Assembly: GCA_017307375.1 (NCBI GenBank)
Contig: JAFKFH010000023.1
Coordinates: forward strand, 1-64,000
Origin: Alphaproteobacteria bacterium
Lineage (GTDB): Bacteria; Pseudomonadota; Alphaproteobacteria; Ferrovibrionales; Ferrovibrionaceae
Direction of reading: 5' to 3'
Length of the DNA: 64,000 nucleotides
Position 1 is the stretch's first letter; every line of letters starts with the position of its first letter. Both the position numbers and the translations under genes were made by a program. Of the stretch, positions 11,137 through 59,193 are shown in pieces. The notes beneath the pieces were generated by a model, which worked only from the letters and a program-made list of their open reading frames with translations, ran no database searches and was not told where the DNA came from.

Positions 11137-11414
11137 TCGATGACCTCGCCGCGCATCAGGAACTTCGCGCAGGCGGCGGTCGAGACGAATCCGAGCAGTG
11201 CGATCACCAGCGCGGCCTCGAAATAGAGGGTGCTGGCGGTGCGGATGCCCATCGTCACCAGCAGGCACATCGCACCGACATAGAGCGCGTCCAGGCCAAG
11301 CACGCGGTCCTGCGCCCGCGGGCCGCGCAGAATCCGCCAGGCGGCGCAGGCCATGGCCAGGCCCAGCATGATCTGGGCCGCGACGATCGACCAGCTCAGC
11401 AGGGAGGACGTCAT
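11133..11414 (-). CDS. mrpF: Mrp Na+/H+ antiporter subunit F
   Basis: 93 residues, three hydrophobic helices, with the family's ILRGPRAQDRVLGLDAL loop between helices 1 and 2. Overlaps both neighbours by 4 bp, so it is translationally coupled within the operon. Confidence 0.93.
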   Translation of the reverse strand: MTSSLLSWSIVAAQIMLGLAMACAAWRILRGPRAQDRVLGLDALYVGAMCLLVTMGIRTASTLYFEAALVIALLGFVSTAACAKFLMRGEVIE

Positions 11415-44625: not shown

Positions 44626-45477
44626 ATGGGCCAGTACAGCCGACCCGATACCCTCGACGAGGCGCTGAGGATCCTGAGCGCCGGCGGCCGCACGCTGCTG
44701 GCCGGGGGGACCGACCATTACCCCGCCCGCGTCGACCGCTTCGCCGACGAAGACATCCTCGATCTCACCGCGATCGGTGCGCTGCGCGGCATCGCCGAGC
44801 TGGCCGATCACTGGCGGCTCGGCGCCCTGACCACCTGGACCGAGCTGGCCGAGGCCGCGCTGCCGCCGCTGTTCGACGGCTATCGCCGCGCCGCCCGCGA
44901 GGTCGGCGGCCGCCAGGTGCAGAATGCCGGCACGCTGGGCGGCAACCTGTGCAACGCCTCGCCGGCGGCCGACGGCACGCCGAACCTGCTGGCCCTCGAC
45001 GCGCGGGTCGAGCTGACCTCGGCGGCCGGGCGGCGCGAACTCGCCATTCCCGATTTCGTGCTGGGCAACCGCCGCACCGCGCGCCTGCCCGACGAGATCG
45101 TCACCGCGCTGATCGTGCCGAAACCGGCGGCCGCGGCGCGCACCGCCTTCGCCAAGCTCGGCGCCCGCCGCTATCTCGTCATCTCGATCGTGATGGTCGC
45201 CGCCCGGCTGGAGGTCGAAGGCGATCGCATCGCCCGGGCCGGCATCGCGGTCGGCGCCTGCAGCGCGGTGCCCCAGCGCCTGCCGGCATTGGAGGCGCGT
45301 CTGGTCGGCCAGTCGCTGGCCAGCGGGCTGCACGATCTCGTCGCCGCCTCCGACATCGCCGGGCTGGCACCGCTCGACGACGTGCGCGGCAGCGCCGCCT
45401 ATCGCCGGGCCGCCGCCGTCACCCTGCTGCGCGACACCCTGGCGGGCCTGGGCCAGCCGATCACCGAGGCCGCCTGA
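44626..45477 (+). CDS. Molybdenum hydroxylase FAD-binding subunit
   Basis: 283 residues, the medium (FAD) subunit of xanthine-dehydrogenase-type enzymes. FAD landmarks: TLLAGGTDHYPARVD (residues 23-40) and VGGRQVQNAGTLGGNLCNASPAADGTPNLLALDA, the pyrophosphate loop. It passes electrons from the 2Fe-2S part to an acceptor. The stop overlaps the next start codon (TGATGA). An amidase-like name seen in automated sets would be misleading. Substrate identity depends on the partner subunit. Confidence 0.92.
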   Translation: MGQYSRPDTLDEALRILSAGGRTLLAGGTDHYPARVDRFADEDILDLTAIGALRGIAELADHWRLGALTTWTELAEAALPPLFDGYRRAAREVGGRQVQNAGTLGGNLCNASPAADGTPNLLALDARVELTSAAGRRELAIPDFVLGNRRTARLPDEIVTALIVPKPAAAARTAFAKLGARRYLVISIVMVAARLEVEGDRIARAGIAVGACSAVPQRLPALEARLVGQSLASGLHDLVAASDIAGLAPLDDVRGSAAYRRAAAVTLLRDTLAGLGQPITEAA

Positions 45478-48212
45478 TGAACCCCATCGCCCTCACCGTC
45501 AACGGCGCCGCCGTCGAGGTCGCCGCCGCCCCGGCCACGCGGCTGGCCGACGTCCTGCGCGACCAGCTGGGCTTGACCGGCACCAAGGTCGGCTGCAATG
45601 CCGGCGATTGCGGCGCCTGCACCGTGCTGCTCGACGGCGCGCAGGTCTGCGCCTGCATGGTGCCGGTGGCCCAGGCGGCCGGCCGCGCGGTCACCACGGT
45701 CGAGGCGCTGGCCGCCGACGGCGGGCTGTCGCGGCTGCAGGCCGCATTCCTGCGCCATGGCGCGGCGCAATGCGGCATCTGCACCCCGGGCATGCTGATG
45801 GCGGCCCACGACCTGCTGGAACGCAATCCCAGCCCGGCGCGCGCCGAGGTCGAGGATGCGCTGGGCGGCGTGCTGTGCCGCTGTACCGGCTACGTCAAGA
45901 TCGTCGAGGCGGTGATGGATGCCGGCGCGCCCGCCACCCTGCCGGACGGGCCGGCCGAGGGGGCCGCCGTGGGCGCCCGCACCGTCAAGGCCGACGGCCG
46001 CCCGCGTGTCACCGGCGAGGCGCTCTATGGCGCCGACGGGATCCCGGCCGATGCGCTGGCGCTGCGCGTCGTGCGCTCGCCGCATGCGCGGGCCCGCTTC
46101 ACCCTCGGCGATCTCGGGCCGCTGCACGCGCGCTGGCCCGGGCTGGTGCGGGTACTGACCGCCGCCGACATCCCGGTCAACCGCTATGGCATCTATCCGG
46201 TCGACAAGGACCAGCCGGCCCTGGCCGATGGCGGCATCGTGCGCTATCGCGGCGAGGCCGTGGTGGCGCTGGTCGGCGAGCCGGACTGCATCGCCCGCCT
46301 GCCCGATGCCGAGGTGCCGATCACCTGGGAACCGCTCGATCCCGTCACCTTCGCCGCCGCCCGCCGCGGCGCGGCCCCGGCCCTGCACGACCACCGCCCG
46401 GACAACGTGCTGACCCGCGGCCGGCTGGCCCGCGGCGACCTCGCGGCCGGCTTCGCCGCCGCGGCGGCGACGGCCGAGATCGCGGTCGAGACCAGCTTCG
46501 TCGAACATGCCTATATCGAGCCCGAGGCGGGTTATGCCCGCCGCGTCGGCGACCGCATCGAGATCGTGGCCTGCACCCAGTCGCCCTACATGGACCGCGA
46601 CGAGGTCGCGCATGTGATGGGCATGGCGCCCGACCGCATCCGCATCATCCCCACCGCGACCGGCGGCGGTTTCGGCGGCAAGCTGGACCTGTCGATCCAG
46701 CCGGTGGTGGCGGTCGCCGCCTGGCTGACCGGGCGGCCGGTGCGCTGCGTCTATTCGCGCCCGGAATCGATGAAGGCGACCACCAAGCGCCATCCCGCCG
46801 CGATCACCGCGCGGGCCGCCGCCGATGCCGCGGGCAACATCACCGCCTTCGACTTCGCCGGCGATTTCAACACCGGCGCCTATGCCTCCTGGGGGCCGAC
46901 GGTCGCCGGGCGGGTGCCGGTGCATGCGACCGGCCCCTATCGCGTCGCCGCCGCCCGGGTCGAGAGCCGCGCGATCTATACCAACGATCCGCCGGCCGGC
47001 GCCTTCCGCGGCTTCGGCGTGCCGCAATCGGCCATCGCCGGCGAGGCGCTGATCGACATGCTGGCCGAGAAGCTCGGCATCGACCGGCTGGAATTCCGCC
47101 ATCGCAATGCGCTGCGCGTCGGCGACATCACGCCGTCGGGCCAGATGCTCAAGGCCTCGGCCGGCCTGGCCGACTGCCTGGCGGCGCTGCGCCCGCACTG
47201 GCAGGCGGCGCAGCGGGCGGTGGCCGAGGCGAATGCGCGGGGCGGCCGGCATCGGCGCGGCGCCGGCATCGCCTGCCTGTGGTACGGCATCGGCAACACC
47301 GCCCTGTCGAACCCGTCGGCGATGCGGCTGGGCCTGCGGCCGGACGGGCGGCTGATGCTCTATAACGGCGCGGTCGACATCGGCCAGGGATCGACGACGA
47401 TCATGCCGCAGATCGCGGCCGACGCGCTGGGCGTGCCGGTCGACCGCATCGACTTCCTCATCGGCGACACCGACCTGACCGAGGATGCCGGCAAGACCTC
47501 GGCCTCGCGCCAGACCTATGTCTCGGGCAAGGCCGCCGAACTGGCCGGCCGCGACCTGCGCGGCCAGATCCTGCGCCGGGTCAATGCCGGCGACGATGCG
47601 GCGATCATCCTGCACCAGGGATACCTGGTGGTGCGCGACGGGGCGGGCGAACACCGGCTGGACCTCGCGTCGCTGAAGCCGGACGAACGCGGTGACGTGC
47701 TGTCGGGCCACGGCCGCTTCGACCCGCCGACCACGACGCTCGATCGCGACGGCCAGGGCGAACCCTATGCCGCCTATGCCTTCGGCGCCCAGATGGTCGA
47801 ACTCAGCGTCGATGTCGCGCTGGGCAAGGTCACGCTGCACCGGATCGTCGCCGCCCATGATGTCGGCCGCGCGGTCAATCCGCAGCAGGTCGAAGGCCAG
47901 CTGCACGGCGGCATCGCCCAGGGGATGGGCCTGGCGCTGATGGAGGAATACGTGCCCGGCCGGACCGAGAACCTGCACGACTACCTGATCCCGACGGTCG
48001 GCGACATGCCGCCGATCGATTGCATCCTCATCGAAAGCCCCGATCCGCTCGGCCCGTTCGGCGCCAAGGGGGTGGGCGAACCGGCGCTGGTCGGCATTCC
48101 GCCGGCGATCTTCGCCGCGATCCACCAGGCGACCGGCGTGCGGCTGACCCGCGCCCCGGCGACGCCGGACCGCATCCACGCAGCCCTCGTAGCCGCCGGG
48201 GTGACGCCATGA
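45477..48212 (+). CDS. Molybdenum hydroxylase, fused 2Fe-2S and molybdopterin subunit
   Basis: 911 residues. Residues 1-150 carry two 2Fe-2S clusters: Cys40, 45, 48, 60 and Cys99, 102, 134, 136 (GCNAGDCGACT, QCGICTPGM, CRCTGY). Residues 170-911 are the molybdopterin domain, with TGGGFGGKLDLS, GAFRGFGVPQ, DIGQGST and the catalytic glutamate in GVGEPALVG (about residue 868). Such enzymes hydroxylate purines, pyridines or similar rings with water-derived oxygen. The CO-dehydrogenase AYxCSFR loop is absent, so this is not CoxL. The neighbouring reductase and enamidase make a pyridine carboxylate (nicotinate-like) substrate the best guess. Confidence 0.92.
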   Translation: MNPIALTVNGAAVEVAAAPATRLADVLRDQLGLTGTKVGCNAGDCGACTVLLDGAQVCACMVPVAQAAGRAVTTVEALAADGGLSRLQAAFLRHGAAQCGICTPGMLMAAHDLLERNPSPARAEVEDALGGVLCRCTGYVKIVEAVMDAGAPATLPDGPAEGAAVGARTVKADGRPRVTGEALYGADGIPADALALRVVRSPHARARFTLGDLGPLHARWPGLVRVLTAADIPVNRYGIYPVDKDQPALADGGIVRYRGEAVVALVGEPDCIARLPDAEVPITWEPLDPVTFAAARRGAAPALHDHRPDNVLTRGRLARGDLAAGFAAAAATAEIAVETSFVEHAYIEPEAGYARRVGDRIEIVACTQSPYMDRDEVAHVMGMAPDRIRIIPTATGGGFGGKLDLSIQPVVAVAAWLTGRPVRCVYSRPESMKATTKRHPAAITARAAADAAGNITAFDFAGDFNTGAYASWGPTVAGRVPVHATGPYRVAAARVESRAIYTNDPPAGAFRGFGVPQSAIAGEALIDMLAEKLGIDRLEFRHRNALRVGDITPSGQMLKASAGLADCLAALRPHWQAAQRAVAEANARGGRHRRGAGIACLWYGIGNTALSNPSAMRLGLRPDGRLMLYNGAVDIGQGSTTIMPQIAADALGVPVDRIDFLIGDTDLTEDAGKTSASRQTYVSGKAAELAGRDLRGQILRRVNAGDDAAIILHQGYLVVRDGAGEHRLDLASLKPDERGDVLSGHGRFDPPTTTLDRDGQGEPYAAYAFGAQMVELSVDVALGKVTLHRIVAAHDVGRAVNPQQVEGQLHGGIAQGMGLALMEEYVPGRTENLHDYLIPTVGDMPPIDCILIESPDPLGPFGAKGVGEPALVGIPPAIFAAIHQATGVRLTRAPATPDRIHAALVAAGVTP

Positions 48213-49648
48213 TCGAGGTCAACCCGGTCGAAACCGTGCGCGACGGCGACGTCGTCGTCTGCCAGGCCTGCCCGGTGCTGTGCCGGATCAAGCCGGGCAA
48301 GACCGGCGCCTGCGACCGCTATGCCAATGTCGAGGGATTGCTGCACCGGGTCGATCCGCTGGTCCTGCTCGACCGCAGCGGGGCCGAGGTCGTGCCGTTC
48401 CTGGCCAACGACTGGACCGGCAACCCGGTCGAGCCCTCGGCCGCCCCGTTCGTGACCGGCATCGGCTCGGGCACGACCTATCCGGACTACAAGCCCGCCC
48501 CCTTCATCGTCGGGTCCGAGGTCGCCGGGGTCGACATGGTCACCGTGGTGACCGAAGGCATCTTCTCCTATTGCGGGCTGAAGGTGAAGATCGACACCGA
48601 CCGCTTCGTCGGCCCCGAACAGGCCGTCGTCACCGCGCGCGGCGAACCGGTCGGGCATGTCACCACTGCCGAATACGGCTCGCAGATGCTGTCGCTGGGC
48701 GGGGTGCGCCACCTGACCGGCGGGTCGAAGAAGGAAGGCGTCGTCACCTGCGACACCCTGCTGGCCCTGGCCAACGGCGCGGCGGTCGAGCTGGCGGTCG
48801 AGGGCGGCGCCCGGCTGGTCGTGCAGGCGGGCAAGCCGCCGGTCATCAACGACGTGCTGGAACAGCGGATGCGCGTCGGCTGCGGCAGCGCCACCATCGG
48901 CATGTTCGCCCAGCAATGGCACGGCCATGTCGACGAGGTCATCGTCGTCGACGACCATATCACCGGCGTGCTGACCGAGCATCAGGCCGGACGCGGCCTC
49001 GACATGCGGCCGGCCGGCATCCGCGTCCGCGGCCGCAAGTCGACGCCGGGCCGCTATTTCCACGTCGCCGACCCGGGCTCGGGCTGGGGCGGCACCACGA
49101 TCACCGATCCGCTGACCATCATCGAGAAGATCGACCCCAAGCTCGCCTGGCCGGGCATGCGGCTCCTGATGGTGTCGACCACCGGCGAGGATTCGATCTG
49201 GCTGGAACTCGACAACGATCTGGTGCCGCGCCCGGCCGCGATGCCCGACCCGATCGCCAAGGTCGTCGCCCGCATCGGCGAGAATTGCGAGCCGGCGCTG
49301 TCGACCGTGCTGTTCATGGCCGGGGCGGGCGGGTCCCTGCGTTCCGGCGTCACCGAGAACCCCATTCGCCTGACCCGGTCGGTACGCGAGGCGCTCACCC
49401 GCGTCACCTCGGGCGGGGCGCCGGTCTATGTCTGGCCGGGCGGCGGCATCACCTTCATGGTCGACGTCACCACCCTGCCGGCCAATGCCTTCGGCTACGT
49501 GCCGACGCCGGCCCTGGTCGCACCGATCGAATTCACCATGCGCCGCGACGACTACGCGGCGCTGGGCGGCCATATCGGCCGGATCCGCCGGCTGGACAGC
49601 ATCGCCGCCTACGGCCAGCATCATCGCAGCGCGCGCAGCGGGGCCTGA
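48209..49648 (+). CDS. 6-hydroxynicotinate reductase-like Fe-S protein
   Basis: 479 residues. A 4Fe-4S pattern opens the protein: Cys18, 21, 25, 35 in VCQACPVLCRIKPGKTGAC. It resembles the 6-hydroxynicotinate reductase of Eubacterium barkeri, which dearomatises 6-hydroxynicotinate to 1,4,5,6-tetrahydro-6-oxonicotinate with a ferredoxin. The rest has long conserved stretches (SEVAGVDMVTVVTEGIFSYCGLKVKIDTDRFVG, a second Cys in FSYCGLK; HITGVLTEHQAGRG). No electron donor gene is beside it. The start overlaps the hydroxylase stop by 4 bp, giving tight coupling. Substrate is by analogy only. Confidence 0.78.
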   Translation: MIEVNPVETVRDGDVVVCQACPVLCRIKPGKTGACDRYANVEGLLHRVDPLVLLDRSGAEVVPFLANDWTGNPVEPSAAPFVTGIGSGTTYPDYKPAPFIVGSEVAGVDMVTVVTEGIFSYCGLKVKIDTDRFVGPEQAVVTARGEPVGHVTTAEYGSQMLSLGGVRHLTGGSKKEGVVTCDTLLALANGAAVELAVEGGARLVVQAGKPPVINDVLEQRMRVGCGSATIGMFAQQWHGHVDEVIVVDDHITGVLTEHQAGRGLDMRPAGIRVRGRKSTPGRYFHVADPGSGWGGTTITDPLTIIEKIDPKLAWPGMRLLMVSTTGEDSIWLELDNDLVPRPAAMPDPIAKVVARIGENCEPALSTVLFMAGAGGSLRSGVTENPIRLTRSVREALTRVTSGGAPVYVWPGGGITFMVDVTTLPANAFGYVPTPALVAPIEFTMRRDDYAALGGHIGRIRRLDSIAAYGQHHRSARSGA

Positions 49649-49650
49649 CC

Positions 49651-50514
49651 ATGGGTCCGGCCGGCCGCCCGCTGCCCGATGGCCGGCTGCATTTCCAGCA
49701 CGGGCCGATCGACCTCGTGCTGCGCGCCTGGGGGCCGGATGCCGAAGCGGCGCACCGGGCGGCGTGGCAGCGCTTCCAGGACATCCTTGACGGGCTGTGC
49801 GGCGAACTGGCCCTGCTGCGCCGGCCGCTGGGGCCGACGCCACCCGACCTGCAGGGGCCGGTGGCCCGGCGCATGCTGGCCGCCTGCTGGCCGCATCGCG
49901 ACGTCTACCTGACGCCGATGGCGGCGGTAGCCGGCAGCGTCGCCGACGAGATCCTGGCCGCGATGCGCCGGGCCGCGCCGGGCCTTGCCCGCGCCTTCGT
50001 CAACAACGGCGGCGACATCGCGCTGCATGTGACGGGCGAGGCGACGCTGACCGCCGGGCTCGTCACCGACCTGGCCGCCCCGGCGATCGACGGCGAGATC
50101 ACGATCCGCGCCGCCGACGCCATCGGCGGCATCGCGACCTCCGGCTGGCGCGGCCGCAGCCAGAGCCTCGGCATCGCCGAAGCCGCGACCGTGCTGGCGC
50201 GCGATGCCGCGGCGGCCGACGCGGCGGCGACGCTGATCGCCAATGCCTGCACGGTCGATCACCCGGCGGTGCAGCGCCTGCCCGCCACGGCGGTGAAGGA
50301 CGACAGCGACCTGGGCGACCTGCCGGTCACCGTCGCGGTCGGTCCGCTGCCGCCCGATGCCGTCGCCGCGGCGCTGGCGCGCGGGGCGGCGCGCGCCGAA
50401 CAATTGCGCCGCGACGGCCATCTCGTCGCGGCAAGCCTTGCCTTGCAGGGCCGTTTCCGCATTATCGGATCCAAAGCCTCGCCTGTCGCCCGGGAGCGCG
50501 TCGCATGTCGCTGA
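49651..50514 (+). CDS. UPF0280 family protein
   Basis: 287 residues, an ApbE-related family. The conserved segment VAGSVADEILAAMRRAAPGLARAFVNNGGDIALHVTGEA has the NNGGDI.L core shared with ApbE-like flavin transferases, and GGIATSGWRGRSQSLGIAEAATV follows. The precise role is unknown. It starts 3 bp after the reductase stop and overlaps the first AA_synth gene. A maturation or flavin-transfer role for the reductase is imaginable but not shown. Confidence 0.8.
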   Translation: MGPAGRPLPDGRLHFQHGPIDLVLRAWGPDAEAAHRAAWQRFQDILDGLCGELALLRRPLGPTPPDLQGPVARRMLAACWPHRDVYLTPMAAVAGSVADEILAAMRRAAPGLARAFVNNGGDIALHVTGEATLTAGLVTDLAAPAIDGEITIRAADAIGGIATSGWRGRSQSLGIAEAATVLARDAAAADAAATLIANACTVDHPAVQRLPATAVKDDSDLGDLPVTVAVGPLPPDAVAAALARGAARAEQLRRDGHLVAASLALQGRFRIIGSKASPVARERVACR

Positions 50515-51089
50515 TCGAAGTCCGCCGCAAGCATTTCATCTACGAGGAGGTCCGCCACGAATTCGGCCCGGCGCCGGGGCGGGTCCATCATCGCGGCGCG
50601 GCGCTGGTGGTCCTGACCAATCCCTATGCCGGGCGCTACGTGGCCGACATCATGCCGATGCAGGACGCGCTGAAGCCGCTGGGCCTGGAAATGGCGCTGG
50701 ACCTGATCCGCGGCATGGGCGGCGATCCCGCCGCGATCGAGGGCTACGGCAAGGGCTCGATCGTCGGTGCCGCCGGCGAGCTCGAGCACGGCGCGCTGTG
50801 GCACGCGCCGGGCGGCTATGCGATGCGCGAGGCGCTCGGCGGGGCCAAGGCCATCGTCCCCTCGGCCAAGAAGGTCGGCGGGCCCGGCGCCCGCCTCGAC
50901 GTGCCGATCACCCACAAGGACGCCTCCTACGTGCGCGGCCATTTCGATGCGATGGAAGTGGGGGTGCCCGGCGCGCCGGCGGCCGACGAACTCGTCTTCG
51001 CCCTGGTGATGACCACGGGGGCGCGCATCCACGACCGGGCCGGCGGCCTGAAAGCCAGCGAGATCAAGGGAGAGGACGGACTGCGATGA
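50505..51089 (+). CDS. AA_synth (DUF1185) family protein, copy 1
   Basis: 194 residues. It belongs to the family named 'amino acid synthesis' but of unproven function. Conserved segments: TNPYAGRYVADIM, GYGKGSIVGAAGELEHGALWH, VPSAKKVGGPGARLDVPITHKDASYVRGHFDAMEV, LKASEIKGEDGLR (used as landmarks). It overlaps UPF0280 by 10 bp and copy 2 by 4 bp. By operon logic it acts on an intermediate of the ring-opening pathway. Confidence 0.85.
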   Translation: MSLIEVRRKHFIYEEVRHEFGPAPGRVHHRGAALVVLTNPYAGRYVADIMPMQDALKPLGLEMALDLIRGMGGDPAAIEGYGKGSIVGAAGELEHGALWHAPGGYAMREALGGAKAIVPSAKKVGGPGARLDVPITHKDASYVRGHFDAMEVGVPGAPAADELVFALVMTTGARIHDRAGGLKASEIKGEDGLR

Positions 51090-51670
51090 GCGCCGATATC
51101 CGCAAGATCGTGACCATCGTCGACGAAATCCGGCGCGAAATGGGCCGCGAGGTCGATCCGCCGGCCCGCCGCGCCGTCGCGGCGGCGGTGATCGCCAATC
51201 CGTTCGCCGGGCGCTATGCCGAAGACCTGGCCGAACTGACCGCGATCGGCGAGGAACTGGGCGAGCTGCTGACGCAGCGCTGCATCGCCGCGCTGGGCAT
51301 CGACGGGGCCAAGGCCGAAAGCTATGGCAAGGCCGCGATCGTCGGCGAAGGCGGCGAGCTCGAACATGCCGCGGCGATCCTGCATCCGAAGATGGGCACG
51401 CCGGTCCGCCGCGTGCTGGAAAAGGGCGCGGCCCTGATCCCCTCGGCCAAGAAGATCGGCGGGCTGGGCACGCCGATCGACGTGCCGCTCGGGCACAAGG
51501 ATGCGGCCTATGTCCGCAGCCATTTCGACGCCATCGAGCTGCGCGTGCCCGACGCGCCGCGCACCGGCGAGATCGTCGTGGCCATCGCGGTCACCGCGTC
51601 GGGCCGGCCGCTGCCGCGCGTCGGCGGGCTGACCAAGGACGAGATCAAGGGTGAGGACGGCCTGCGCTGA
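51086..51670 (+). CDS. AA_synth (DUF1185) family protein, copy 2
   Basis: 194 residues, a clear tandem paralogue of the preceding gene with the same length. Matching landmarks: ANPFAGRYAEDLAELTA, SYGKAAIVGEGGELEHAAAILHP, IPSAKKIGGLGTPIDVPLGHKDAAYVRSHFDAIEL, and the same KGEDGLR end. Sequence divergence is too high for a recent duplication, so the two copies probably form a heteromer or act in sequence. The next gene overlaps by 20 bp. Confidence 0.85.
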   Translation: MSADIRKIVTIVDEIRREMGREVDPPARRAVAAAVIANPFAGRYAEDLAELTAIGEELGELLTQRCIAALGIDGAKAESYGKAAIVGEGGELEHAAAILHPKMGTPVRRVLEKGAALIPSAKKIGGLGTPIDVPLGHKDAAYVRSHFDAIELRVPDAPRTGEIVVAIAVTASGRPLPRVGGLTKDEIKGEDGLR

Positions 51671-51986
51671 AGCGCTGCGCCTGGCCGCCGCGGCGCTGAT
51701 CGCGCTGGCGGCGGCGGCACCCGTCGCGGCCCAGCAGAAACCGCCGCCGCCACCGCCGCCGGTGGAAGGCGACCGGCCGGTCGAGGCGATTGCCCGCGAC
51801 CTCGGCGTCACCCCCGAACAGTTCCGCGAAGCCTTCAAGAAGGTGACGCCGGCCCCGAAAGGCCAGCGCCCGACGCCGGAACAGCGCGCCCGCAACCGCA
51901 AGGTGCTGTCGGAAGCCCTCGGCGTCTCGCCCGAAAAGCTCGACGAAGTGATGGACAAGTACCGCCCGGAGGGGCCGCGGCACTAA
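51651..51986 (+). CDS. Small exported protein with two helix-turn repeats
   Basis: 111 residues from a GTG that overlaps the preceding gene by 20 bp. A signal peptide (LRLAAAALIALAAAAPVAAQ) is followed by a polyproline run and two similar helical units: DLGVTPEQFREAFKKVTP and ALGVSPEKLDEVMDKYRP. No other domain is recognised. It is the last gene of the hydroxylase operon; its stop lies inside a hairpin terminator. The role in a catabolic operon is unclear. A periplasmic sensor or scaffold would fit but is not supported further. Confidence 0.6.
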   Translation: MRTACAEALRLAAAALIALAAAAPVAAQQKPPPPPPPVEGDRPVEAIARDLGVTPEQFREAFKKVTPAPKGQRPTPEQRARNRKVLSEALGVSPEKLDEVMDKYRPEGPRH

Positions 51987-52013: not shown

Positions 52014-52038
52014 GCTCTAGATGGTTGGCTCCAACGGC

Positions 52039-52382
52039 TCATTCGTAGAGTCCAAGAATGCGCTCGAGATGGCGGCGCACTTCTCGACGATCGATATCGG
52101 ACAGCACTCCCAGCCGATCGACGTCGCGCGCATCGAGCGTTGCCAGTTGGCCGTCCTGACAACCGACGGCGCTGGTAGTCCGGCCTGGCGGATGTCGGTG
52201 ACAAGAATGTCGCCGGGCCAGCCTCGATTTTCGGCACTCGTGATCATCATCGCCCACAACAGGTGCGGTGCCAACAGATGGGTTCCTGTTGCGACGACCA
52301 ACGCCGGACGACGCTGTGTCGTCGTCAGGTCGGTATACGGGAACGGAACCTTGACGACCGACCGACGCTCAAAGGTCGGCAT
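52039..52382 (-). pseudogene. mazF/pemK toxin, frameshifted
   Basis: A MazF/PemK-type mRNA interferase. The first two-thirds reads normally (MPTFERRSVVKVPFPYTDL, RRPALVVATGTHLL, GDILVTDIRQAGLPAPSVVRTA). Then the frame is lost: near 52145-52149 one base is missing. Adding one G there (GCCAA then CTGGCA) restores a normal family ending, LATLDARDVDRLGVLSDIDRREVRRHLERILGLYE, in the -1 frame ending at 52039. As written, the original frame runs on to a stop at 52017 with an unrelated C-terminus. So the toxin is dead or there is a base error. The antitoxin overlaps its start by 14 bp. Confidence 0.75.
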
Positions 52383-52587
52383 AGGCGCGCCGATCGGCTT
52401 CGCTATCCCATTCACCAAAGGTCTTGAAAGGATCTTCGCGCGCTTCCCGGCGCGGCGCCTTCATCAAGACGACACGATCCCCCTCGATCAGATAGGCGAT
52501 CTCATCGCCCTCTTCCAGGTGCAGCACGTCACGCACCGGCTGCGGTATCGTTGTCTTTGCCTCGCTCGCCAACCGGCTGGTAATCAT
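52369..52587 (-). CDS. MazE/AbrB-type antitoxin
   Basis: 72 residues. An N-terminal SpoVT-AbrB swapped-hairpin fold (ITSRLASEAKTTIPQPVRDVLHLEEGDEIAYLIEGDRVVLMKA, landmarks) is followed by an acidic/aromatic tail (REDPFKTFGEWDSEADRRAYADL) of the sort that binds MazF. It lies directly upstream of the toxin and overlaps it by 14 bp. A 104-bp gap follows before the enamidase gene, with no gene in it. Confidence 0.85.
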   Translation of the reverse strand: MITSRLASEAKTTIPQPVRDVLHLEEGDEIAYLIEGDRVVLMKAPRREAREDPFKTFGEWDSEADRRAYADL

Positions 52588-52691: not shown

Positions 52692-53888
52692 TCAATGCCC
52701 CACCACCTCCGGCACGCGTTCGGCCGGCGGGGTATTGCGGCTGCGCCCGGCGCGGATGATGCCGTCGATGACGACCATGCCGACACCCGGCAGGTCGCCG
52801 ACCTCGAGGCATTCGAGCGTGTCCTTGCCCGCCGAATGCTGCGCCTTGTCGAGGAACACGAAATCGGCCGGGCGGCCGGCTTCGAGCAGGCCGCCGGCGA
52901 GGTTGCGGATGCGCGCGGTGTTGCCGGTGGCCAGGCAGATCGCCTCGGCGCCCGACAGGCCGCCCAGCCCCGACAGCAGCGCCATCATGCGCAGGATGCC
53001 GAGCGGCTGGACGCCCGAGCCGGCCGGGCTGTCGGTGCCGAGGATCACGCGATGGAGCTGGCCCAGTTCGCGTGCCACCTTCATCGCCGCCAGCGCCACG
53101 CGCTCGTTGCCGTTGTGCACGAGTTCGATGGCGCGGGTCGAGCGTTCGCAGAGTTCGCAGACATGCCCCTCGGGCAGCGAGGTGTGGCCGCCGTTGATAT
53201 GGCCGATGACGTCGGCGTCGGCCTCCAGCACCACATCCTTGTCGATCAGCCCGGAACCGGGGATCGACGGGCCGCCGGTATGGATCGTCGACTGGATGCC
53301 GTGCTTGCGCGCCCAGGCGACCATCTGGCGGGCCTCGGCCCCGGCCTTGACCGAGCCCAGCCCGACCTCGCCCAGCAGCCCGACCCCGGCGGCCGCCAGT
53401 TCGCGGAAATCATCCTCGACCATGCCCTTCTCGATCACCGGGGCGCCGGCCAGCACCTTGACCCCGCCGGGGCGGAAGGCGTCGAAGGCGCGCTGGGCGG
53501 TGATCGCCAGCGCCTTCAGCCCGACGATGTCCTTGGGCCGGCCGGGCAGGTGCACCTCGCCGGCCGAGACCATCGTGGTGACGCCGCCATGCATGAAGCT
53601 GTCGATCCAGTTCAACTGGGTCTGGCGCGGCGTCCAGTCGCCGAACACCGGATGGACATGGCTGTCGATCAGCCCGGGCGCCAGGGCGCAGCCGTGGGCG
53701 TCGATGATCTGCTTTGCCGCCGACGTGTCGACATCCTTGGCACGGCCGACCGCTTCGATCTTGCCGTCGACGGCCACGAGGGTGTCGGCATCGAGGATCG
53801 GCTGCGCCAGATCGCCCGACAGCATCAGCCCGACGTTGCGGATGACCAGCTTGCCCTTCATCGGGCCCGACGTCACGTCCAGCGCCAT
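52692..53888 (-). CDS. Enamidase-like amidohydrolase
   Basis: 398 residues, amidohydrolase superfamily. It has a metal HxH in GLIDSHVHPVFGD, and long segments strongly recalling the E. barkeri enamidase (HGGVTTMVSAGEVHLPGRPKD, GVKVLAGAPVIEKGMVEDDF, GEVGLGSVK, HTGGPSIPGSGLI, RNTPPAERVP). That enzyme opens 1,4,5,6-tetrahydro-6-oxonicotinate to 2-formylglutarate and ammonia, the step after 6-hydroxynicotinate reduction. AGGAGG lies 8 bp before the ATG. It follows marR (42-bp gap) in the same direction. Confidence 0.87.
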   Translation of the reverse strand: MALDVTSGPMKGKLVIRNVGLMLSGDLAQPILDADTLVAVDGKIEAVGRAKDVDTSAAKQIIDAHGCALAPGLIDSHVHPVFGDWTPRQTQLNWIDSFMHGGVTTMVSAGEVHLPGRPKDIVGLKALAITAQRAFDAFRPGGVKVLAGAPVIEKGMVEDDFRELAAAGVGLLGEVGLGSVKAGAEARQMVAWARKHGIQSTIHTGGPSIPGSGLIDKDVVLEADADVIGHINGGHTSLPEGHVCELCERSTRAIELVHNGNERVALAAMKVARELGQLHRVILGTDSPAGSGVQPLGILRMMALLSGLGGLSGAEAICLATGNTARIRNLAGGLLEAGRPADFVFLDKAQHSAGKDTLECLEVGDLPGVGMVVIDGIIRAGRSRNTPPAERVPEVVGH

Positions 53889-53930: not shown

Positions 53931-54404
53931 TCAGCCCAGGCGTTTCAAGAGGGCGATGAACTGCGCCTGCTCGTCCGGTTCGAGCGGCGAAAGGGTCTCG
54001 CGCGTCACCGCGCGGGCGCGGTCCTCCATCGCCTCGTAGGCCTCGACGCCGCGCCGGGTCAGGCGCACCAGGAAGCGCCGCTTGTCGACCGGGTCGGGCA
54101 CGCGGTCGACCAGCTTGCGTTCGCCCAGGCGCTGGACGACACCCTGGATCGTCGCCGGATCCATCGCGATCAGCCGGCCCAGATGGTTCTGCGACAGCGG
54201 CCCGCGTTCGGTCAGCATGGCCAGCGCGGCGAACTGCGTCGGTGTCGCCGCATCGCCCATGTTGTCCTGGAAGATCGCGCTTTCGCGCTGATGGGCGCGG
54301 CGCAGCAGGTGGCCGACCTGCTCGGTCAGGCGATAGGGCGGCAAGGTCGCCGCGGCCGGGGCCGGCGCCGCCGCCTGGACGGGATTTTTCGTCTTCGCCG
54401 CCAT
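53931..54404 (-). CDS. MarR family transcriptional regulator
   Basis: 157 residues. A winged helix spans about residues 55-115: ATPTQFAALAMLTERGPLSQNHLGRLIAMDPATIQGVVQRLGERKLVDRVPDPVDKRR (landmarks), with the wing DPVDKRRFLVRLTRRG. The ATG at 54404 has a GGGGGAG site six bases upstream; the earlier ATG at 54434 has none. MarR proteins commonly sense aromatic acids; NicR of Pseudomonas putida, a MarR protein, senses nicotinate intermediates. It likely controls the enamidase, hydroxylase operon and perhaps the BMP importer (divergent). Confidence 0.88.
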   Translation of the reverse strand: MAAKTKNPVQAAAPAPAAATLPPYRLTEQVGHLLRRAHQRESAIFQDNMGDAATPTQFAALAMLTERGPLSQNHLGRLIAMDPATIQGVVQRLGERKLVDRVPDPVDKRRFLVRLTRRGVEAYEAMEDRARAVTRETLSPLEPDEQAQFIALLKRLG

Positions 54405-54463
54405 CCCTGCTCCCCCGGGGTTTCGATTAACCATCCGGTCAGGTTTTCGTTACTAAGGACTAG

Positions 54464-54483
54464 GCGCCGGCCATGGCCGGTGC
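54464..54483. promoter_or_regulatory. Hairpin/dyad upstream of the BMP importer
   Basis: GCGCCGGCCA / TGGCCGGTGC, a 10-bp dyad with one G-T pair containing a perfect CCGGCCATGGCCGG palindrome, in the 126-bp gap between marR and the importer. A half-site ACGAAA (complement strand near 54450) faintly recalls the GTATAC operator. Function unknown. Confidence 0.3.
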
Positions 54484-54530
54484 TAGCAATTATGGTTCTG
54501 GGAGTAAAACACGCTGGGGAGACAGCATCC

Positions 54531-55517
54531 ATGCGCATTCGTGCCACGCTGACCGCCGCCGCCGCCGCGCTTGCCCTCGTCGCCGCGTCGGGCGCCGCAC
54601 GGGCTGCCGATTTCGAACCGGCCGTCATCTTCGACATGGGCGGCAAGTTCGACAAGTCGTTCAACGAATCGGCCTATAACGGCGCGGAACGGTTCAAGAA
54701 GGAAACCGGGATCGCCTACAAGGAATTCGAGGTCACGAACGAAAGCCAGCGCGAGCAGGCCCTGCGCAACATGGCGCGCCGCGGCGCCACGGTGATCGTC
54801 GGCATCGGCTTTGCCCAGGCGACCCCGATGAAGACGGTCGCCCCCGAATTCCCCAACATCAAGTTCGTCATCATCGACGGCGTGGTCGAGGCGCCGAACG
54901 CCCGCTCGATCCTGTTCAAGGAACACGAAGGCTCGTTCCTCGTCGGCATGATCGGGGCGATGAAGTCGCAGACCGGCAAGATCGGCTTCGTCGGCGGCAT
55001 GGACATCCCGCTGATCCGCAATTTCGCCGCCGGCTATGTCGAGGGCGCGAAGTATTCGAATGCCGCCGTCGAGGTGTTCCAGAACATGACCGGCACCACG
55101 CCGGCCGCCTGGAACGACCCGGGCAAGGGCGCCGAGTTGGCCAAGAGCCAGATGGATCGCGGCGCCGACGTGGTCTATGCCGCCGCCGGCGCCACCGGCC
55201 TCGGCGTGCTGCAGGCCGCCAAGGATGGCGGGAAGTTCTCGATCGGCGTCGATTCCAACCAGAACTACCTGCATCCCGGCTCGGTGCTGACCTCGATGAT
55301 CAAGCGGGTCGACAACGCCGTCTACGACTCGTTCAAGTCGGCCAAGGACGGGACCTGGAAGGCCGGCATGGTCTCGCTCGGCCTCAAGGAAGACGGCGTC
55401 GGCTACGCGCTCGACGACTACAACCGCAAGCTGATCACCCCGGAGATGGAAGCCAAGGTCAACCAGGCCAAGGCCGACATCATCGCCGGCAAGATCGTGG
55501 TGCAGGGCTACAAGTAA
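54531..55517 (+). CDS. BMP family ABC transporter substrate-binding protein
   Basis: 328 residues. Signal peptide ALVAASGAARA without a lipobox Cys, so it is soluble in the periplasm, not a lipoprotein. The BMP fold is shown by FDMGGKFDKSFNESAYNGAERF, GIGFAQATPMKTVAPEFPNIKFVIIDG (landmarks), FKEHEGSFLVGMIGAM, GFVGGMDIPLIRNFAAGYVEG. Relatives bind nucleosides or nucleobases, so an N-heterocycle ligand is plausible. A GGGGAG site precedes the ATG. First gene of a four-gene importer operon. Confidence 0.93.
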   Translation: MRIRATLTAAAAALALVAASGAARAADFEPAVIFDMGGKFDKSFNESAYNGAERFKKETGIAYKEFEVTNESQREQALRNMARRGATVIVGIGFAQATPMKTVAPEFPNIKFVIIDGVVEAPNARSILFKEHEGSFLVGMIGAMKSQTGKIGFVGGMDIPLIRNFAAGYVEGAKYSNAAVEVFQNMTGTTPAAWNDPGKGAELAKSQMDRGADVVYAAAGATGLGVLQAAKDGGKFSIGVDSNQNYLHPGSVLTSMIKRVDNAVYDSFKSAKDGTWKAGMVSLGLKEDGVGYALDDYNRKLITPEMEAKVNQAKADIIAGKIVVQGYK

Positions 55518-55533
55518 CCCTCGCCCCGGGGCC

Positions 55534-57111
55534 ATGACCCCTCATGCGAAGGCGGCCGGCGGTGCGGATGCATCGCCGGTCTCCCCTCCCCTCGTCGAAC
55601 TGATCGGCATCGACAAGCGCTTCGGCGCCGTCCATGCCAACCGCGACGTGTCGCTGCAGATCGGGCGCGGCTCGATCCACGGCATCATCGGCGAGAACGG
55701 TGCGGGCAAGTCGACGCTGATGTCGATTCTGTACGGCTACTACACCGCCGATGCCGGCGAGATCCGGGTCGACGGCCAGCCGGTGTCGATCCGTTCGTCG
55801 CAGGATGCGATCCGCGCCGGGATCGGCATGGTCCACCAGCATTTCATGCTGGTCGACACCTTCACCGTGCTCGAGAATGTCTGTCTCGGCGTCGAGGGCG
55901 GCTTCCGCCTCGGCGAGGGCATGGCCCGTGCCCGCGAGACGCTGGCCGCGCTGGAGCGCGACTACAAGCTGGAAGTCCCGCTCGATGCCGTGGTCGGCGA
56001 CCTCGCCGTCGGCATCCAGCAGCGCGTCGAGATCCTGAAGGCGCTCTATCGCGGCGCCCGCATCCTGATCCTCGACGAGCCGACCGGCGTGCTGACGCCG
56101 CAGGAAGCCGACCATCTGTTCCGCATCCTCAAGAGCCTGCGCGACGAAGGCAAGACGGTCATCCTGATCACCCACAAGCTGCGCGAGATCATGGACGTCA
56201 CCGACCGGGTGACCGTCATGCGCCAGGGCGCCGTCGTCGCCGAGCGGCGCACGACCGAGACCAACCGCCAGGAACTGGCCGAGCTGATGGTGGGCCGCAA
56301 GGTGTTGCTGCGGGTCGAGAAGGAGGCGGCGACGCCCGGCCCGCAGATGCTGATGGTCTCGGGCCTGTCGGTGGTCGACGAGGCCGGCGTCGCGCGGGTC
56401 AAGAACGTCTCGTTCTCCGTGCATGCCGGCGAGATCGTCGGCATCGCCGGGGTCTCGGGCAACGGCCAGTCGGAATTGCTGGAGGCGCTGACCGGCATGC
56501 GGCCGGCGACATCGGGCCATATCGGCCTGCGCGGCGAGGACGTGACGGCGCGGCTTGCCGCCGGCGCCGCCGATTTCCGCCGGCTGCGCGCGGCCCACGT
56601 GCCCGAAGACCGCCACCGGATGGGGCTGGTCAAGCCGATGGCGGCCTATGAAAGCTACATTCTCGGCTATCAGGACGACCCCGCCTACAACGGCTCGATC
56701 CTCAACCGCCTGGGCGCGATCGTGCAGCGCTGCGCCAAGGCGATGGCCGGCTTCGACGTCCGCCCGCCCAACCCGCATCTGCGGTCGGCGGCGTTCTCCG
56801 GCGGCAACCAGCAGAAACTGGTGCTGGCGCGCGAATTCGAGCGCGACCCCGATTTCCTGGTGGTCGGCCAGCCGACGCGCGGCGTCGACATCGGCGCCAT
56901 CGAGTTCATTCACCGGCGGCTGATCGAATTGCGCGACCAGGGCAAGGCGATCCTGCTGGTCTCGGTCGAACTGGACGAGATCCTGGCGCTGTCGGACCGG
57001 ATATTGGTGATGTTCGACGGCCACATCGTCGGCGAATGCCTGCCGGCCCAGGCGACCGAACGCCGGCTGGGGCTGATGATGGCCGGCGTCGCCGACGTGG
57101 AGGCCGCCTGA
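55534..57111 (+). CDS. BMP-type ABC transporter ATP-binding protein (two domains)
   Basis: 525 residues with two fused nucleotide-binding domains, as in RbsA-like and BMP-type systems. Domain 1: Walker A GENGAGKST, signature-like VGIQQRVEILKALYR, Walker B ILILDEPTGVL. Domain 2: a degenerate Walker A GVSGNGQSELLEALTG and SGGNQQKLVLAREF. It starts 16 bp after the binding-protein stop and overlaps the first permease gene by one base. Confidence 0.93.
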   Translation: MTPHAKAAGGADASPVSPPLVELIGIDKRFGAVHANRDVSLQIGRGSIHGIIGENGAGKSTLMSILYGYYTADAGEIRVDGQPVSIRSSQDAIRAGIGMVHQHFMLVDTFTVLENVCLGVEGGFRLGEGMARARETLAALERDYKLEVPLDAVVGDLAVGIQQRVEILKALYRGARILILDEPTGVLTPQEADHLFRILKSLRDEGKTVILITHKLREIMDVTDRVTVMRQGAVVAERRTTETNRQELAELMVGRKVLLRVEKEAATPGPQMLMVSGLSVVDEAGVARVKNVSFSVHAGEIVGIAGVSGNGQSELLEALTGMRPATSGHIGLRGEDVTARLAAGAADFRRLRAAHVPEDRHRMGLVKPMAAYESYILGYQDDPAYNGSILNRLGAIVQRCAKAMAGFDVRPPNPHLRSAAFSGGNQQKLVLAREFERDPDFLVVGQPTRGVDIGAIEFIHRRLIELRDQGKAILLVSVELDEILALSDRILVMFDGHIVGECLPAQATERRLGLMMAGVADVEAA

Positions 57112-58214
57112 TGCAAGCCTCGGGCGGCGGCGGCCTGCCGCGCTGGGTCGATATCGGCCTGATCCCGCTGCTCAACCTCGCGGCGGCCTTCGTCTGTTCC
57201 GGCCTCGTCGTCGTCGCGGTCGGGGAAAATCCGTTCAAGGCGATGATGCTGCTGGTGCAAGGCGCCTTCGGCTATCCCGACCTGATCGGCTGGACGCTCT
57301 ATTACGCTACCAACTTCATCTTCACCGGGCTCGCCGTGGCCGTCGCGTTCCACGCCGGGCTGTTCAATATCGGCGGCGAGGGCCAGGCCTATCTCGGCGG
57401 GCTCGGCGCGGGGCTGGTCTGCCTTTATCTCGGCCCGCATCTGCCGGCGCCGGTGATCATCCCGCTGGCCATTCTCGCGGCCGCCGCCTTCGGCGCCGGC
57501 TGGGCCGCGATTCCCGGCTGGCTGCAGGCCCATCGCGACAGCCATATCGTCATCACGACGATCATGTTCAATTTCATCGCCGCGGCGCTGATGACCTATC
57601 TGCTGGTCAACGTGCTGATCAAGCCGGGCCAGCAATCGCCGGAATCGCGCGAATTCGCGACCTCGGGCTGGATCCCGCAGGTCCACGAGGTGCTGGGATG
57701 GATCGGCATCAAGATGCCGCCCTCGCCGCTCAACCTCGCCTTCGTGCTGGCGATCGTCGCCTGCATCGCTTTCCAGCTGTTCCTGTGGCGCACGCGCTGG
57801 GGCTACTCGCTGCGGGTCGTCGGCCACAACGAGACGGCGGCGCGTTATGCCGGCATTTCGCCCAGGCGCATGATCGTGCTGGCGATGCTGCTGTCAGGCG
57901 GTTTCGCCGGGCTGGTCGCGGTCAACGAACTGATGGGCGTGCAGCACCGCATCCTGCTCAACTTCACCGGCGGCTACGGCTTCGTCGGCATCGCCGTGGC
58001 GCTGATCGGCCGCAACCGGCCGCTCGGCATCGTGCTGGCGGCCATCCTCTTCGGCGCGCTCTACCAGGGCGGCTCCGAGCTGTCGTTCGAGATGCCGAAC
58101 GTGAAGCGCGAACTGGTCGTCGTCATCCAGGGCCTGGTGATCCTGTTCTGCGGCGCCCTGGAACAGCAATTCCGCGGGCGGCTCGCCGCCTGGTTCAACC
58201 GCGCGCAGGGGTGA
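57111..58214 (+). CDS. BMP-type ABC transporter permease 1
   Basis: 367 residues, about ten hydrophobic segments. Landmarks: NLAAAFVCSGLVVVAVGENPF, FHAGLFNIGGEGQAYLGGLGAGL and GHNETAARYAGISPRRM. Membrane half of the importer. The ATG at 57111 shares its A with the stop codon of the ATPase (TGATG). Confidence 0.92.
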   Translation: MQASGGGGLPRWVDIGLIPLLNLAAAFVCSGLVVVAVGENPFKAMMLLVQGAFGYPDLIGWTLYYATNFIFTGLAVAVAFHAGLFNIGGEGQAYLGGLGAGLVCLYLGPHLPAPVIIPLAILAAAAFGAGWAAIPGWLQAHRDSHIVITTIMFNFIAAALMTYLLVNVLIKPGQQSPESREFATSGWIPQVHEVLGWIGIKMPPSPLNLAFVLAIVACIAFQLFLWRTRWGYSLRVVGHNETAARYAGISPRRMIVLAMLLSGGFAGLVAVNELMGVQHRILLNFTGGYGFVGIAVALIGRNRPLGIVLAAILFGALYQGGSELSFEMPNVKRELVVVIQGLVILFCGALEQQFRGRLAAWFNRAQG

Positions 58215-58218
58215 GGCG

Positions 58219-59193
58219 ATGGACGAGATCATGATCACCGTCGCCTCGCTGGCCGCTTCGACCCTGCGGGTGGCGACGCCGATGATCCTCGCAGCCCTCG
58301 GCGGCCTGTTTTCCGAGCGGGCGGGCATCGCCAACATCGCGCTCGAGGGCAAGATGCTCGGCGCCGCCTTTGCGGCCGCCGCGGTCGCGGCGCTGTCGGG
58401 CTCGGCCGTGATCGGTCTCGGCGCCGGCATCCTGGTCGCCGTGCTGTTGTCGCTCGTCCATGGCTATGCCTGCATCACCCATAACGGCGACCAGGTGGTC
58501 TCCGGCATGGCGATCAACATCATGGTGGCGGGCCTTGCCCCGACGCTCGCCCTGGCCTGGTTCCAGCAGGGCGGGCAGACGCCGATCCTGTCCGGGGCGC
58601 AGCGCTTCGCGCCGATCATCCTGCCGTTCAGCGACGTCGCCCGCGACGTGCCGCTGTTCGGCCCGCTCTATGCCCGGGTGCTGTCGGACCAGACCGTGCT
58701 GGTCTATGTCGCGCTGCTGGCCGTGCCGCTGGCCGCCTGGGTCCTGTACCGCACCCGCTTCGGCCTGCGCCTGCGCGCGGTCGGCGAAAACCCGCATGCC
58801 GTCGATACCGCCGGCATCTCGGTGGCCGGCATGCGCTTCCGCGCGCTGATCATCGCGGGCGTGCTTTGCGGCATTGCCGGCGCCTACATGTCGACGGCGC
58901 ACGGCGCCGCCTTCGTGCGCGACATGACCGCCGGCAAGGGGTTCCTGGCGCTCGCCGCCCTGATCTTCGGCAAGTGGCGTCCGGTACCCACGATGCTGGC
59001 CTGCCTGCTGTTTGCCTTCGCCGACGCCGTGCAGGTGCGGCTGCAGGGCACCGTGCTGCCCGGGATCGGCGTGGTGCCGGTCCAGGCGATCCAGGCCCTG
59101 CCCTATGTGCTGACCGTCGTGCTGCTGGCCGGCTTCGTCGGCAAGTCGGCGGCGCCGAAGGCAATCGGCCTGCCGTTCGTCAAGGACCGTTGA
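58219..59193 (+). CDS. BMP-type ABC transporter permease 2
   Basis: 324 residues, several membrane helices; FSERAGIANIALEGKMLGAAFAA, GENPHAVDTAGISVAGMRFRA and GKGFLALAALIFGKWRP are typical of the second permease in BMP-type importers. Starts 4 bp after permease 1. A 78-bp gap follows to the HupE-like gene. Confidence 0.92.
   Translation: MDEIMITVASLAASTLRVATPMILAALGGLFSERAGIANIALEGKMLGAAFAAAAVAALSGSAVIGLGAGILVAVLLSLVHGYACITHNGDQVVSGMAINIMVAGLAPTLALAWFQQGGQTPILSGAQRFAPIILPFSDVARDVPLFGPLYARVLSDQTVLVYVALLAVPLAAWVLYRTRFGLRLRAVGENPHAVDTAGISVAGMRFRALIIAGVLCGIAGAYMSTAHGAAFVRDMTAGKGFLALAALIFGKWRPVPTMLACLLFAFADAVQVRLQGTVLPGIGVVPVQAIQALPYVLTVVLLAGFVGKSAAPKAIGLPFVKDR

Follow-up and report, generated by a model that had tools for sequence, protein, structure and literature searches.

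What two genes of the AA_synth family (DUF1185, PF06684) and one of the UPF0280 family contribute to a nicotinate-degradation operon is the question raised by the window, the whole 64,000-nucleotide stretch of alphaproteobacterial DNA analyzed here. AA_synth structures were solved in 2007-2008 while a function has been lacking, and in databases the family is named for amino acid synthesis. The initial annotation of the DNA considered these proteins as a missing hydrolase, isomerase or decarboxylase of the pathway, or as a maturation complex for the reductase.

Gene content of the locus

The pathway context proposed earlier is right: the locus encodes a xanthine-dehydrogenase-type hydroxylase, the 6-hydroxynicotinate reductase (Hnr) and an enamidase (Table 1). 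Orthologues of Hnr and enamidase, which together we use to recognize the reductive nicotinate pathway, are both encoded in the window. The enamidase gene lies about 1 kb downstream of the AA_synth pair, and the MarR gene recurs at most Hnr loci.

Table 1. Genes and smaller reading frames at the nicotinate locus of the window
Feature	Position	Strand	Basis or remark
FAD subunit, xanthine-dehydrogenase-family hydroxylase (predicted nicotinate dehydrogenase)	44626..45477	+	PF00941, PF03450
Same hydroxylase, fused [2Fe-2S]/molybdopterin subunit	45474..48212	+	PF00111, PF01799, PF01315, PF02738, PF20256
6-Hydroxynicotinate reductase (Hnr)	48203..49648	+	42% identity to E. barkeri Hnr; 63-71% to 37 other Pseudomonadota
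UPF0280, predicted cytosolic ApbE-type flavin transferase for Hnr	49651..50514	+	NF003322, 357 bits vs 290 cut-off
AA_synth copy 1 (AAS1 clade, BB2672/3byq-like)	50505..51089	+	PF06684 213.5 bits; 3byq E=2.7e-53
AA_synth copy 2 (AAS2 clade, SPO0826/2qtp-like; enamidase-linked)	51086..51670	+	PF06684 246.6 bits; 2qtp E=6.5e-82
ORF of 111 aa, signal-peptide-like start and proline run	51651..51986	+	Other frame; overlaps end of copy 2
Small ORF, PemK/MazF-type toxin-like by eye	52017..52418	-	Between AA_synth pair and enamidase
Enamidase, lactam-ring-opening amidohydrolase	52692..53888	-	E. barkeri enamidase 2vun, E=9.6e-106
MarR-family regulator	53931..54434	-	PF12802, PF01047
BMP-type ABC transporter	54438..59193		Beside nicotinate genes, in place of usual BCAA-type one

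Both AA_synth proteins are 194 amino acids long and end in EIKGEDGLR, which confirms the KGEDGLR landmark noted before. The reading-frame overlaps are also as described, with 10 bp shared between copy 1 and the end of UPF0280 and 4 bp (ATGA) between the two copies. Each copy scores far above the PF06684 gathering cut-off of 27 bits, and they are clearly diverged from each other, with 45% identity over 191 amino acids (E=5e-47). A search of the window's genome found no third AA_synth. The nearest relative of copy 1 is BB2672 (3byq) and that of copy 2 is SPO0826 (2qtp). A tree built from 107 sequences places the copies in different clades, with 38 rows in that of copy 1 (SH-aLRT 99) and 27 in that of copy 2 (SH-aLRT 94). 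Because the nearest relatives differ and the clades are separate, the pair is, judging from these sequences, one of old paralogues or diverged orthologue groups and not a recent duplication.

Distribution of AA_synth and Hnr

We surveyed 397 Pseudomonadota genomes, assigning the functions of neighboring genes by homology and, outside named families, calling neighborhoods by simple ORF picking; all co-occurrence counts come from genomes that are not phylogenetically independent. AA_synth is encoded in 74 of the genomes and Hnr in 38. Thirty-seven have both, and AA_synth is also present in 37 genomes without Hnr. A predominance of DUF1185 genes without the reductase, named at the outset as the result that would speak against a tie between them, was therefore not found, and neither was its reverse, the two counts being equal. 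The sole Hnr genome lacking AA_synth is the one-contig genome G134 (L093), with an Hnr-UPF0280 locus and no AA_synth anywhere.

Behind the reductase, the order UPF0280-copy 1-copy 2 recurs in 12 of the 38 Hnr loci, so the arrangement is not due to chance. These 12 are the loci with both copies; 15 have only copy 1, 10 only copy 2 and one has neither. A single copy is thus present in 25 of the 37 AA_synth-bearing Hnr loci, and obligate co-assembly of the two proteins is not required.

Copy 2 groups with SPO0826, and copy 1 belongs to a wider BB2672 clade. The "amino-acid metabolism" label of BB2672 and SPO0826 came from the fold and from BCAA-type transporters beside SPO0826 (PMC2954203). In our tree SPO0826 groups among the AA_synth genes of Hnr loci, and such loci commonly carry a BCAA-type transporter. 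The name "amino acid synthesis" is therefore probably a misreading of a transporter in this kind of locus.

AA_synth in anaerobes and in other pathways

Searching with the enamidase of E. barkeri brought up the cluster of that species (L094) and its relatives. All nine complete anaerobe loci encode Hnr, UPF0280, enamidase and one AA_synth of the copy-2 type. The AA_synth gene of E. barkeri begins at 11188, 33 bp past the enamidase stop (11155), and is the only one in the genome; window copy 2 is 55% identical to it. The E. barkeri hnr-hgd-ndh-ena cluster for nicotinate fermentation was reportedly described by Alhapel et al. in 2006, with 2-formylglutarate said to be reduced and not decarboxylated, and it includes a gene for a 3-hydroxyisobutyrate-dehydrogenase-type reductase. 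Like the window, E. barkeri has Ndh, Hnr, UPF0280, enamidase and AA_synth in one cluster. It differs in having one AA_synth, a two-subunit molybdenum protein, an Hnr with an N-terminal ferredoxin-like extension that the window protein lacks, and a pathway that goes on by reduction to methyleneglutarate. Another related system is the nicotinate cluster of Azorhizobium and Bradyrhizobium, which serves an aerobic reductive pathway (PMC3511419); the Bradyrhizobium-like family f8 has the copy-2 type only.

The largest other clade holds 32 of the 105 AA_synth genes. Its 32 loci encode an alpha/beta hydrolase (31 loci), an aldehyde dehydrogenase (32), a luciferase-type monooxygenase (27) and a flavin reductase, a gene content that we take to be that of the trigonelline pathway. 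In that pathway an enamide is hydrolyzed to an aldehyde, and a 2-formyl diacid is formed that loses CO2. TgnF of A. baylyi resembles the window pair in family and in belonging to a pathway with an enamide-opening hydrolase. It differs in clade, in the two-component flavin monooxygenase upstream (judged from the trigonelline-type gene content) and in being said to assist an aldehyde dehydrogenase: it is reported to stimulate TgnE-dependent succinate-semialdehyde oxidation, its own reaction not being given (PMC7913881). Genes of the BB2672 subclade adjoin an FAH hydrolase, a VOC protein and a Zn-alcohol dehydrogenase, a neighborhood resembling the coumarin operon of HcdD, a pathway member with no demonstrable effect (PMC7913881). 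Further AA_synth contexts combine an FAD monooxygenase, a hydrolase and a succinate-semialdehyde dehydrogenase.

AA_synth accompanies the lactam-opening hydrolase

An enamidase of the orthologous type is encoded in 23 of the 38 Hnr genomes. The copy-2 type of AA_synth is present in all 23 and in only one of the 15 without enamidase (Fisher p 1.6e-9, kinship ignored). Four independent contrasts on the Hnr tree gave three concordant, no discordant and one without difference (p 0.25, a test with no power at this number).

All 15 Hnr genomes without enamidase (G016, G051, G055, G071, G134, G155, G158, G172, G223, G225, G277, G279, G313, G332 and G353) encode HyuA and/or HyuB of one orthologous type, nine in the locus and six elsewhere, usually with copy 1 alongside. 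HyuB identity was 66-93% in the eight genomes tested by name. HyuB paralogues in the enamidase genomes are all distant (at most 46% identity), except in G122 and G170, which have both systems; the orthologous HyuA/HyuB type is absent in 21 of 23. Given its presence in 15 of 15 genomes on one side and its absence from 21 of 23 on the other, it looks as if an ATP-dependent HyuAB lactamase replaces the enamidase in the Hnr pathway. HyuA/HyuB of the hydantoinase/oxoprolinase type also appear to stand in for enamidase at loci L114-L119. With an enamidase gene in the window, and enamidase or HyuAB in 38 of 38 Hnr genomes, the proposal that AA_synth is the missing ring-opening hydrolase was rejected.

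Plasmids give a similar picture. Copy 2 is present in 16 of 16 records with an enamidase at 60% or more, and in all seven inspected copy-2 records without enamidase HyuA and HyuB adjoin AA_synth or Hnr genes. A strict rule that copy 2 occurs only with enamidase is weakened by G332 and by the plasmid loci carrying HyuAB.

In several genomes the hydrolase and the reductase genes are apart. G122 and G170 have an AAS1-AAS2-enamidase group away from the Hnr locus and a further copy 1 within that locus, and R. rhododendri (L118) has HyuA-HyuB-AAS1-AAS2 in a stretch that lacks Hnr. Seven loci without Hnr have an AA_synth gene immediately before an enamidase-like gene (42-44% identity): G199 (L036), G235 (L043), Mariluticola (L108), Mesorhizobium WSM4875 (hits H56 and H107), Shinella (L120), A. 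vitis (L121) and Thermomicrobium roseum (L123), from the Thermomicrobiota. Prescottella (L122) has the enamidase-like gene without AA_synth. Since both the split modules and the Hnr-less loci keep AA_synth with the hydrolase, AA_synth goes with the ring-opening hydrolase rather than with the reductase.

The T. roseum plasmid encodes a Rieske dioxygenase, an XDH-type protein, AA_synth and the enamidase-like amidohydrolase in one operon, presumably for a ring-opening pathway. The BMP-type transporter of the window also takes the place of the BCAA-type one at L017, L025 and L118; the same BMP protein is encoded near the AAS1-AAS2-enamidase group in G122 and G170 and, in R. rhododendri, less than 7 kb from HyuAB-AAS1-AAS2, which suggests a different import substrate.

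UPF0280 as a predicted flavin transferase for Hnr

Among the 397 genomes, UPF0280 (NF003322) is found above its cut-off in exactly the 38 with Hnr, one copy each. The structural model (pLDDT 90.5) matches the DUF375 structure 2o34 at Z 20.2 and the flavin transferases ApbE, Ftp and FmnB at Z 13.8-16.5 over about 200-218 residues; unrelated structures come next, from Z 8. The motifs NNGGDIA and ADAxAT are invariant or nearly so, and in a profile alignment the GGD and ADxxAT motifs of UPF0280 match those of V. cholerae ApbE. D190 and T194, both invariant, are within the C-terminal ADxxAT motif and presumably correspond to the Asp/Thr metal site of ApbE-type transferases. Unlike ApbE, Ftp and FmnB, UPF0280 has no evident signal peptide; it is 13-19% identical to them and forms a separate family (NF003322/DUF375). 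The Hnr of E. barkeri holds a covalently bound flavin. With the ApbE fold, the one-to-one occurrence with Hnr and this covalent flavin, the natural reading is that UPF0280 is a predicted ApbE-type flavin transferase for Hnr. The idea of a reductase maturation factor in the operon thus holds up for UPF0280; for AA_synth it does not, as half of the AA_synth genomes have no Hnr.

GSGTT in Hnr was considered as the flavin acceptor motif and set aside, as it is not conserved in E. barkeri (GAGTN). The GSAT motif of Hnr is GSAS in L103. Literature searches on UPF0280, PF06684 and the covalent flavin of Hnr found nothing further. UPF0280-like proteins scoring below the cut-off are encoded in the control genomes of Methanocaldococcus jannaschii and Methanosarcina acetivorans; such ApbE-like proteins of archaea may have other flavoproteins as clients.

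Conserved residues and fold of AA_synth

N39, K81, E90, E92, H93, R106, E160 and R176 (BB2672 numbering) are invariant in 114 AA_synth sequences, and R142, H144 and R172 nearly so. Both window copies retain the full conserved polar set from N39 to R176, as expected for an enzyme. His174 is replaced by Leu in 24 of 25 Pseudomonadota copy-2 proteins (L176 in window copy 2) and kept in the anaerobes. Glu90, Glu92, Arg172 and Arg176, reported as interface salt-bridge residues in 3byq (PMC2954203), are present in both copies; BB2672 and SPO0826 are hexamers in solution (PMC2954203).

The model of copy 2 (mean pLDDT 78) matches 2qtp at Z 24.9 (147 residues, 1.3 Å) and 3byq at Z 21.8; copy 1 was assigned to the same BCM-like fold of 2qtp and 3byq by sequence only. 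Beyond its own family, the copy 2 model has matches below Z 8, the Rid proteins and chorismate mutases (Z 6-8) being tied with unrelated folds.

A possible role in processing the opened ring

From the observed gene order, orthology, co-occurrence, fold and conserved residues we infer a reaction, a substrate and a division of labor between two modules. One would consist of Hnr and UPF0280, with UPF0280 installing the covalent flavin of Hnr. The other would combine the lactam-opening hydrolase, enamidase here and HyuAB elsewhere, with AA_synth. The hydrolase would open 1,4,5,6-tetrahydro-6-oxonicotinate to 2-(aminomethylene)glutarate, a product of the enamine/enol type. As AA_synth follows the lactam-opening step, it probably acts on the opened-ring product. 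It would speed the conversion of 2-(aminomethylene)glutarate to free 2-formylglutarate by enamine/enol tautomerization and hydrolysis, as a small oligomeric enzyme with a possibly RidA/chorismate-mutase-like fold, hexameric in its solved relatives. The two copies would be separately maintained paralogues with similar chemistry and not obligate partners. The E. barkeri enamidase reportedly yields 2-formylglutarate without AA_synth, so any effect of AA_synth would be on rate or tautomer.

That AA_synth turns a ring-opened enamine or enol into the free aldehyde is the reading we favor, at somewhat less than an even chance. Such a role would explain the tie to two unrelated hydrolases, the presence in both fermenters and respirers, and the trigonelline parallel. 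Among the roles suggested initially the isomerase comes closest: isomerase- or tautomerase-type chemistry fits best, with the particular reaction a proposal of ours. Against enamine processing stand G134, which has no AA_synth, and the BB2672-clade loci with FAH, VOC and Zn-alcohol dehydrogenase genes, which have no obvious enamine. The negative result for HcdD, the weak, tied structural matches outside the family and the small number of independent contrasts count against it as well.

The main rival, which we consider unlikely but worth keeping in view, is that AA_synth is a non-catalytic partner of the next enzyme, an aldehyde dehydrogenase or reductase, for instance binding the reactive aldehyde and passing it on. 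The effect of TgnF on TgnE-dependent oxidation would agree with this, as would an aldehyde dehydrogenase within 6.5 kb in 32 of 32 trigonelline-type loci and in 4 of 5 loci of another clade. However, the same distance holds one in 0 of 37 Hnr loci, though AA_synth is present in all but one Hnr genome, and the near-invariant set of charged residues and His exceeds the needs of a binding scaffold. The other proposals are considerably less probable. AA_synth as a decarboxylase converting 2-formylglutarate to glutarate semialdehyde, an unassigned aerobic step, would be in line with the CO2-losing 2-formyl diacid of the trigonelline-type loci, and copy 1, which the anaerobes lack, could still be such an enzyme; we think it improbable. 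E. barkeri, which reduces 2-formylglutarate, has the same gene after its enamidase and a reductase gene besides, which disfavors the decarboxylase proposed in the initial annotation as far as copy 2 is concerned. As our main idea for copy 2 it was abandoned when its prediction, an E. barkeri genome without AA_synth, failed.

No more credible is an obligate heteromer of one specialized and one degenerate subunit. The ATGA overlap, the loss of His174 from Pseudomonadota copy 2 and the 3byq salt-bridge residues kept in both copies could be read this way, but single-copy Hnr loci are common, the anaerobes have one copy, and homologues of each copy are homohexamers in solution (PMC2954203). Least probable by far is that AA_synth matures or stabilizes Hnr or the molybdenum hydroxylase. 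It shares their transcription unit and is present in 37 of 38 Hnr genomes; yet as many genomes have it without Hnr, G134 has Hnr without it, split modules leave it with the hydrolase, and UPF0280 already fits the role one to one.

Returning to enamine processing, the survey ties AA_synth to one specific chemical step and links UPF0280 to one specific client protein, Hnr. Many nicotinate degraders are predicted to use an ATP-dependent HyuAB lactamase and not an enamidase. A wider claim, that PF06684 constitutes a new family of enzymes whose substrates are enamine or enol products of ring-opening hydrolases in nicotinate, trigonelline and other pathways, with UPF0280 a cytosolic flavin transferase dedicated to Hnr, we advance a shade more cautiously than the role at this locus, as possible rather than probable. 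If PF06684 does act on such products, "amino acid synthesis" would be a misnomer for the family.
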